Below are positions 10,970 to 24,927 of a DNA stretch of 34,197 nucleotides, piece after piece. A program made the translations under genes and the position numbers. Each line of letters opens with the position of its first letter. The first letter of the stretch is position 1. Below the pieces are notes generated by a model. The model had not been told where the DNA came from. It was given only the letters and a program-made list of their open reading frames with translations, and searched no databases. Source of the DNA: Chitinophagaceae bacterium (GTDB lineage Bacteria; Bacteroidota; Bacteroidia; Chitinophagales; Chitinophagaceae); the NCBI GenBank assembly GCA_025359725.1, contig JANYEX010000213.1, positions 1 to 34,197 of the forward strand. Reading direction: 5' to 3'.

Positions 10970-11935
10970 TTAACCAAATTTGGCTGAAAAAGATGCGTCA
11001 TCACCATTTATGTTGCGGATAATAAATACCGTTATGCCCGCTGCTGCATTGTAGCCTAATTCAGCGGCTGTTTTTTTAACAAAAATATTAGGGTTATAAT
11101 CTACAATAGCAGATAATACTCCTGGCAGACTATTTTTTGTCATGCCAAAATAAAATTGCAGACTAGTGCCTGATTTCACTTTCATTCTTACCCTTTTTGT
11201 AGCCGTCATGCCCGCTGTTTTGCGTACCAAAGAGAGCGTTGCCTTCACTATTCCGCTTCTTGTTACCACTTTGCGTACTGCATCATAAATTACATAATTC
11301 TTGGCTTTTACTTTGTCCTTTGCAGTGGTGTAAAAGGCTTTTCCTGTGCTGCAAAGACCTTTGGCTGTTGTAAAAAGTGCATTGCCTGCCGAGCGTCTTT
11401 CTACAGTAAATGTTTCTGCATCGCCCACCAATACTGGCATTGCAGCTATTAATGGTAACAATGCGGCAGCCTCTGTGGTTATGTTGGTAAGCATGGCGGC
11501 GTCAAGTCCTTTAGGACCTAGTTGGCTCATATATTTACCACCTTTTATCACTACATTGCTAGATATATTATACAATAGGCTGGCATCAAATTTTCCTAGT
11601 CCTTTAAATTGAAACCCTTTGTATTCAGCCGATTTTGTTTCGAAAGTATCGCCCACTATGGTTTGCACGGTTTGTATGTTTGTTAGCAATATGGCGGCTT
11701 GCTTGTCCCTAGCCTCGTAGCCAAGCGTATTTGTTTCCAAGCCAGTAACGTTGGATGGTATGGCGGCAAAAGCTATCCTTTCGGCATCGAAGGCATTAAT
11801 TTTTGCGATAGTAATTCCTCGCGCAGCTAAATCTGCCTGATCTCTTTTCAAAAAAGCAAGTTTAGCAAGGCAAGTGTCAATTAGTTTTTCATAACTCATT
11901 GAAAAAAGTAGCTTAAGCAATTTAGGTGAAGCCAT
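10970..11935 (-). CDS. Hypothetical protein
   Basis: 321 aa ORF with normal codon texture; Ala/Lys/Thr rich; no family recognised. Confidence 0.75.
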   Translation of the reverse strand: MASPKLLKLLFSMSYEKLIDTCLAKLAFLKRDQADLAARGITIAKINAFDAERIAFAAIPSNVTGLETNTLGYEARDKQAAILLTNIQTVQTIVGDTFETKSAEYKGFQFKGLGKFDASLLYNISSNVVIKGGKYMSQLGPKGLDAAMLTNITTEAAALLPLIAAMPVLVGDAETFTVERRSAGNALFTTAKGLCSTGKAFYTTAKDKVKAKNYVIYDAVRKVVTRSGIVKATLSLVRKTAGMTATKRVRMKVKSGTSLQFYFGMTKNSLPGVLSAIVDYNPNIFVKKTAAELGYNAAAGITVFIIRNINGDDASFSAKFG

Positions 11936-12150
11936 AATAAGTATAATTAAAAAAGTAAGTATTAATTATTTGTACGCAACATAGGTATTTGTTTGAGATA
12001 TAAAATCACAAAATAAAAATAAACAAAAAATATATTTTAAAATTTATTTTTAAATGTAATTTATTGTTTTTTAAATTCTTTTATTTCAATAATTAATACC
12101 CTTAAATATTTAGTTTTATAGTAAGGTTCACCGAAAATTATGTCAAGTTA

Positions 12151-12442
12151 TCCAATATCTATGTTCTTACATCCAAATACTACTTTCTTTTGCCCAAAAG
12201 CTGTGTTCTTTTGTCCATATCTATGCTTTTTTTCGTAATATTTATCATCTTATGCTCAATTGCTTGCCATTTTTGTTCAAAAACGACTAGAAAATGCACG
12301 TAAGAACACAAATTCTAAACGTAAGCGTAAAACTTATGGACGAACGACTAAAATTATGAGTACAAGAACACAGATTTTGGATGTAGAACAACAATTTTCA
12401 TACATCTAACAATAGCTTTTACACATCTTGCAATAGATATTG
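12151..12442. repeat. 21-bp-period degenerate tandem repeat array with an orientation switch in the middle
   Basis: TTCTT cores at 12164, 12185 and 12206 (exact 21-bp spacing) in the left half; complementary AAGAA/AAGCG/AACGA cores at 12302, 12323, 12343, 12364 and about 12384 in the right half. Confidence 0.8.
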
Positions 12443-12519
12443 AATAACTTACAATAAAGAAGAAATAAATGAGAAATGATAATTAATAAGGGATAATTAA
12501 AAATAGAAATTATCAATTG

Positions 12520-12634
12520 AAAGTCCCGTTTGAGGACGATATATTGCTAGAAAAACGGCAAACAAACAGCTATAAGTGCCGTAGGTACGGGATATTTATT
12601 ATTAGTTCATTTATCAATTTATATATCGTCCCCA
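12520..12634. repeat. Dispersed short repeat, family B, bounded by inverted GGACGATATAT/ATATATCGTCC
   Basis: gtcccgtttgagGACGATATATTgctagaaaaacg ... gtgccgtaggtacgggatatttatta ... aatttATATATCGTCcccaaa; related block at 22095-22135 (gtcctattggGGACGGAATATTcgtggtaaaagacg). Confidence 0.7.
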
Positions 12635-12725
12635 AAGAAGCATCGTTAACTGGGAGGAACGAGAATCGCTAGTATTAAACACCTATAATATTGTGACATT
12701 CTTCTTAAAATCATAATTATTGACG
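12634..12725. repeat. Dispersed element, family A copy 2 (lacks the distal arm)
   Basis: AGAAGCATCGTtaactGGgAGgAACGAGAATCGCtAGTaTT...ataatattgTGACATtcttcttAAAATCa aligns with copy 1, including its loop. Confidence 0.75.
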
Positions 12726-14845: not shown

Positions 14846-14851
14846 GAAATA

Positions 14852-14914
14852 AATATGAGTTATAAAATATGAGTTATGAGTTCAAGAATGTAGGCTACTC
14901 AAAACTCATATTTC
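14852..14914. repeat. Dispersed palindromic repeat, family C (AAATATGAGTT...)
   Basis: aAATATGAGTTataaaatatgagttatgag...ctcAAAACTCATATTTc; similar blocks at 22187-22212 and 24508-24593. Confidence 0.65.
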
Positions 14915-17674: not shown

Positions 17675-17689
17675 AGATTAAAGTTTAAT

Positions 17690-17724
17690 GTTTAGTGATT
17701 AATAGTTTGCATTAATCACTAAAC
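17690..17724. repeat. Palindrome, family D member (TTTAGTGATTAAT)
   Basis: GTTTAGTGATTAAT-agtttgc-ATTAATCACTAAAC; 14-bp perfect arms in the pepT/yggS spacer. Confidence 0.85.
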
Positions 17725-17750
17725 GTTAATCATTAAACATTTAAAAAACG

Positions 17751-22135: not shown

Positions 22136-22236
22136 GGAAGTTTTAGCCCAGAAGTGAGTATTAATGTGGTGGGGCGATAGGCAGATAGTTATGAGTTATG
22201 AAATATGAGTGCTTAGTTAGGATAGTGAACGGAAGT

Positions 22237-24487: not shown

Positions 24488-24507
24488 GGAGTTTAGGGCG
24501 GAAAGGA

Positions 24508-24593
24508 AATATAAATTATGAAATATGAAATGTTTATTATGGGATTATGGATTACCTCAATCTCATATTTCATACTTCATAGTTCATATTTCT
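24508..24593. repeat. Dispersed palindromic repeat, family C member
   Basis: GAAATATaaattatGAAATATGAaat...cTCATATTTCatacttcatagttcATATTTC. Confidence 0.65.
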
Positions 24594-24838: not shown

Positions 24839-24865
24839 AACTTTTTAATTGATAATTGATAAAAT

Positions 24866-24921
24866 TTAGTGGTTAGTGATTAGTGAAAACTTATAATTTA
24901 TAACCAACAACTAACCACTAA
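24866..24921. repeat. Palindrome, family D member (TTAGTGGTTAGT)
   Basis: TTAGTGGTTAGT (24866-24877) and ACTAACCACTAA (24910-24921), 12-bp perfect arms. Confidence 0.8.
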
Positions 24922-24927
24922 CAACTG

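Follow-up and report, generated by a model that had tools for sequence, protein, structure and literature searches.

Intergenic DNA arrays spaced by pairs of helical turns lie upstream of orphan gene families in a Chitinophagaceae genus

The window analysed here, a 34,197 nt stretch of DNA from a Chitinophagaceae bacterium, contains an intergenic segment made of degenerate short repeats that change orientation halfway, which raises the question of what kind of element this is and what it might do. A sequence-only reading had placed a 21 bp-period array with a TTCTT core at positions 12151–12442, and proposed either a decayed heptapeptide-repeat reading frame or a structural or protein-binding array. 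Autocorrelation confirmed the periodicity, with a 21 bp peak of z 6.3 in 12151–12260 and z 7.2 in 12295–12442; none of 1000 dinucleotide shuffles was as strong. The limits proved slightly wider (12142–12454): a unit model built over eight related loci showed ∼7 forward 21 bp units followed by ∼8 inverted ones (P < 0.001), spaced by 21 and occasionally 20 bp (mean ∼20.8). The left arm (12142..12287, + strand; unit model and autocorrelation) is formed by ∼7 units of 20–21 bp that share a repeat core, although the degenerate motif TGTCCAAAAGCT is better conserved over the eight genomic copies than TTCTT. The ∼8 inverted units of the right arm (12287..12454, − strand) are complementary to the left arm, as indicated by the unit model, inverted repeats, arm covariation and folding. 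Direct comparison of copies placed a CACTAGAAAATGCAC-like centre at 12286..12301. Tandem Repeats Finder, proposed earlier as a check, missed the array, its units being too diverged.

The change in orientation is real, since the strand folds back on itself better than shuffled sequences do (DNA z −3.1, RNA z −4.0) and its two arms match each other; for related copies, RNA folding z values reached −10.2 and −16.6. Arms of one copy matched each other at 53.8, against 31.8 for arms taken from different copies (permutation P 0.0002). This covariation can result from selection or from quasi-palindrome correction, and decides in favour of neither. Searches with the Rfam 15 covariance models matched nothing in the window, the surroundings of the array included. 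Other repeats lie nearby. A palindromic, REP-like element, AGTGCCGTAGGTACGGGATATTT, flanked by GTCC.. and ..GGAC, is present at 12526–12640 of the window and beside the array of contig C74; it thus adjoins two of the eight related arrays, and similar motifs were seen in genome G006. Intergenic tandem repeats of 7 and 14 bp, of differing sequences, occur at window positions 14851–14882, 17678–17741, 22187–22210, 24506–24592 and 24846–24926; 7 bp repeats are common in genome G016 too.

The genome-wide repeat search that had been suggested identified eight related copies in the same genome, on contigs C9, C231, C74, C207, C321, C43, C94 and, with a low score, C218. They have the plan of the window array, most with a similar CACTAGAAAATGCAC-like centre, which was also found in genome G009, and several are accompanied by a leader resembling TTTATAGTA.AGTTCACCGAAA. 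Two of the eight are associated with the gene that adjoins the window array, which codes for a 321-aa protein. The C74 copy lies beside a remnant coding for the C-terminal 47 residues of this protein (L022:3689–3829; genome G000), with the promoter and the bulk of the gene lost. This copy shows that lone arrays can arise through gene loss, but further families linked to arrays may exist. Some arrays of the genome are present at two or more places, and for 22 of its 38 arrays nothing similar occurred anywhere else in the DNA compared. Outside the source genome, DNA and strict unit-pattern searches with the window repeat found almost no matches because the array sequence turns over; a looser three-unit pattern retrieved arrays with other sequences in the same genus.

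The array is therefore one of many. An intergenic scan for any period of 5–63 bp in 449 kb of the source genome found lags of 20–22, 41–42 or 61–63 in 44 of 52 periodic windows, with mostly unrelated sequences. Six other genomes of the genus contained 2.2–4.0 such windows per 10 kb of intergenic DNA; in all, the intergenic DNA of seven genomes of the genus is rich in 21 and 41–42 bp arrays of unrelated sequence. No such arrays were found in two other genera of Chitinophagaceae scanned, while a third had two windows; 80 named Bacteroidota loci yielded 0.41 periodic windows per 10 kb. Arrays chosen on a lag of 20–22 alone showed, when pooled, peaks at 21, 42, 63, 84, 105 and 126, inverted symmetry exceeded a period-preserving null in about half of the sampled arrays, and open frames across arrays were at the level of chance (1.19 observed vs 1.24 expected), a few G012 windows in these three tests containing N and several small contigs being read as N. 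The head-to-head switch, regarded initially as unusual, is thus a frequent trait. The class is made up of DNA arrays whose spacing is based on two helical turns, present in a Chitinophagaceae genus and some wider relatives. The named relatives closest to the source genome by DnaK are Chitinophagaceae. Outside the genus, intergenic arrays of 42 and 21 bp were also observed beside other genes at L225:717–1343 (a Prevotellaceae MAG) and L170:17652–17905 (Chitinophagaceae IBVUCB2), respectively.

The link to a neighbouring gene was absent from the sequence-only reading. The orphan 321-aa gene (10970..11935, − strand) reads away from the array; it belongs to a multicopy family confined to this genus among the genomes searched, and an upstream array of this class accompanies most of its copies. 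Inspection of genes flanking sampled arrays led to a second multicopy family, of 217 aa. Further families grew from single flanking genes: DUF6261 (PF19775), a family of 313 aa whose C-terminus resembles CarboxypepD_reg, and the L250-type family, the second of 321 aa, which is weakly matched by the profile of the first (E 6e-5). With genes called as mechanical ORFs, an array was present in 85 of the 97 upstream regions of the five families, compared with 41 of 119 (34.5%) for other genes whose upstream intergenic DNA is 400 bp or longer (Fisher 5e-16); four of the families were found via array-adjacent seeds (1–5 each), and the counts include these seeds. The figure for all other genes was 13% (64/491), and no array appeared in 485 block-shuffled upstream regions. 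Among the family members in a contig sample, some of them seeds, 11 of 15 had an array. Downstream arrays were less common in the five families (15/95). Outside the genus, two of three genomes had clear 41–42 bp arrays directly upstream of DUF6261 genes, at five of the seven such genes. Most sampled arrays do not adjoin the five families; many lone arrays have ordinary genes as neighbours, and many arrays are located at contig ends. Lone arrays showed no upstream bias. A role as terminators was considered and discarded, the arrays not being enriched between convergent genes.

The distance from the array to the start codon is typical of each family (medians of 63–224 bp in the genus), with conserved leader blocks in between. 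Between the window array and the start codon of its 321-aa gene (11936..12095, − strand), an alignment of 18 upstream regions revealed the family-wide conserved blocks AAAAACAA..AATTA and TA.T.TTGca, which are putatively promoter-like. Arrays of the 321-aa and 313-aa families stop ∼200 bp short of the start codon, on the far side of such blocks; at some DUF6261 loci it ends 12–66 bp from the start codon. The 313-aa genes (L347–L375) carry a strongly conserved leader of ∼65 nt, ∼50–130 bp upstream, with the form TTATTAGGTTA..ACTCCACT..AGTGTAGCCGCAACAGGGGATATCGCGATGGTTGG. Its stem seems to be changed on both sides in divergent members and has no Rfam match; this leader is possibly a new structured RNA. 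A similar block, TTTAATGG..TTA....TTGCAGGATTA, was noted ∼30–80 bp before the start codon in the 321-aa and DUF6261 genes of the genus, which are unrelated families, and is perhaps a shared promoter.

No relatives of the 321-aa protein were recognised in family libraries, with no Pfam or NCBIfam transposase match and no viral or phage relatives found. Searches of PDB, NCBIfam, PHROGs and PADLOC with the orphan proteins gave no usable match, family searches recognised no DNA-binding domain in them, and none matched Pfam Nop. By eye, their N-terminus looks helical and their C-terminus rich in beta structure; a single-sequence AlphaFold model was unreliable (pLDDT 32).

When lags of 10–63 bp were left open, the fundamental periods of 88 family arrays were 21 (22 arrays), 41 (26), 42 (37), 43 (1) and 62 bp (2), and no other. 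By a z-ratio rule, 27 of the 29 arrays of the 321-aa and 217-aa families fell in the 21 bp class, although under a stricter rule five 217-aa arrays count as 42; the DUF6261, 313-aa and L250-type families, including DUF6261 outside the genus, showed 41–42 bp in 59 of 59 cases. Period class thus goes with gene family (P 1e-20). These periods amount to ∼2, 4 or 6 helical turns, with a quantum of ∼20.7 bp, the helical repeat of DNA being ∼10.4 bp per turn, so that spacing in the 88 arrays is confined to nearly whole turns. Periods of 41 and 42 are mixed inside families, with 39–40 and at least 44 absent: length can slip by a base, yet it stays near whole turns. Such a mixture is what a helical constraint of close to 10.4 bp per turn would produce, and what codons or a frozen ancestral length would not. 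Many of the 41–42 bp units contain two palindromic cores ∼21 bp apart and can therefore be read as paired 21 bp units; many 21 bp arrays lack palindromes. Sequence is less stable than period. Between species, the arrays of DUF6261 genes and of the first 321-aa family had mostly lost their similarity at protein identities of at least 60%, and in the 217-aa family it was kept for longer, upstream neighbours being left unmasked in these comparisons.

Several explanations were weighed. That the array is a gene for a heptapeptide repeat, decayed or living, as 21 being a multiple of three and the open frame found in some arrays might indicate, is very improbable: open frames at chance level mean that the arrays are not genes, 41 and 62 cannot be divided by three, and the arms are inverted; for the class as a whole the coding reading is refuted. 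A different proposal is that the arrays are by-products of mutation, slippage and hairpin template switching yielding functionless minisatellites with complementary arms. Tandem duplication with sequence turnover, the many lone arrays near ordinary genes, and the arm covariation also predicted by quasi-palindrome correction all suit it, but it leaves unexplained the upstream placement at five families, the family-specific period and the reappearance of arrays at DUF6261 genes from elsewhere in the class, in other families, and we consider it unlikely. It is similarly doubtful that the arrays are transcribed into an RNA with hairpins at fixed spacing, bound by the adjacent protein in a guide-like or decoy manner. 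Some copies do fold strongly as RNA, many units are palindromic, and the DUF6261 arrays closest to the start codon may sit in a leader. A-form RNA has ∼11 bp per turn, and neither this nor an unconstrained spacing would predict periods of 21, 41–42 and 62 only, which correspond to turns of B-DNA; moreover, palindromes are missing from many 21 bp arrays, variable spacers are absent, and the arrays of the 321-aa and 313-aa genes end upstream of the promoter-like blocks.

The array and gene might disperse together as a foldback or MITE-like element, with the orphan protein as mobility factor, in the manner of REP/RAYT, and lone arrays as remnants or non-autonomous copies. The eight dispersed arrays, two with the gene and one with its remnant, the long inverted arms, the arrays found at two or more places and those at contig ends fit this idea. 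Against it, the protein has no transposase motif or family match, no target-site duplication or empty site was found among the arrays compared (the closest named relative has no empty site at its dnaK locus, where synteny ends at the gene), array sequences at separate loci mostly bear no relation to one another, in contrast to REP or MITE families, and the role would be needed separately in five unrelated families. Overall, mobility is an improbable explanation.

The arrays are characterized by where they lie, a period specific to the gene family, units free to take either orientation, arms that are complementary and a lack of coding. The reading preferred, with a probability of roughly 50%, is that they are helically phased double-stranded DNA acting for the adjacent gene, from which we infer a protein lattice or cruciforms; periods of 21, 41–42 and 62 bp, which fit helical turns, support the DNA structural or protein-binding option proposed at the outset. 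The window repeat and the orphan gene would then make up one unit, with the array upstream. A protein lattice might read the array as double-stranded DNA, making contact with a single face of the helix at every other turn, since the lengths present are all close to whole pairs of turns and sequence conservation is low; units could be tolerated on it in either orientation. The product of the adjacent gene and an architectural protein are candidates for the lattice protein. Such a lattice, or cruciforms extruded from palindromes at two-turn spacing, might set the expression of the adjacent gene, and the number of units may tune it. A weak 7 bp sub-periodicity present in the pooled arrays is left unexplained by helical turns. 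More tentatively, with the odds somewhat against it, the arrays could belong to a two-part system of Bacteroidia in which small orphan-protein families are paired with arrays of family-fixed two- or four-turn period and free sequence, forming a locus-specific protein–DNA complex. A spacing kept by each gene family, with array sequence changing from locus to locus, points to a control element, or a system of gene plus array, that has yet to be described.

No paper on such arrays was found in the open-access literature searched, where the sole mention of DUF6261 was incidental. The foldback (FB) elements of eukaryotes have long inverted arms of short tandem subrepeats, as the window copy does; the arrays described here differ in lying upstream of particular genes with a two-turn quantum, and no terminal duplications were found. 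They are not CRISPRs, as had been stated from the start: their units abut, vary gradually and have no spacers. REP/BIME sequences and RAYTs form REPtrons with one repeat sequence per family and a gene for an HUH tyrosine transposase (PMC3733652). Both cases involve many-copy intergenic palindromic repeats, some beside a dedicated gene and others alone, but REPs share sequence and lack a helical lattice, while the present arrays are locus-specific, with no repeat sequence shared genome-wide, have a period fixed by gene family and adjoin proteins without a transposase match. TIGR-Tas systems combine 9 nt variable spacers between two repeats of 8–12 nt, 36 nt RNAs and Nop-domain proteins (PMC12045711). 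They resemble our arrays in the tandem array beside a gene for a small, partly helical protein, the locus-specific array sequence and the stem-loop forms; in unit alignments of 13 arrays, however, no variable spacer columns were seen by eye, and the periods of 21, 41–42 and 62 bp set them further apart; a Pfam Nop match was not found for the orphan proteins. Intergenic direct repeats of heptamers such as TAACTGA, with a fixed 7 bp sequence, are known partly from Bacteroidetes, and a regulatory role has been proposed for them (PMC4679880). They and other short tandem repeats too are abundant intergenic tandem repeats often found upstream of genes, but lack inverted arms, a two-turn lattice or a tie to given gene families; a derivation of the 21-mers from heptamers was rejected, given that, despite the weak 7 bp signal, family arrays show no period of 14, 28 or 35. 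The arrays described here, bacterial DNA that keeps its length in helical turns rather than its sequence, matched to the family of the adjacent gene, fall outside the kinds of array tested and offer a first functional handle on several orphan families, Pfam DUF6261 included.
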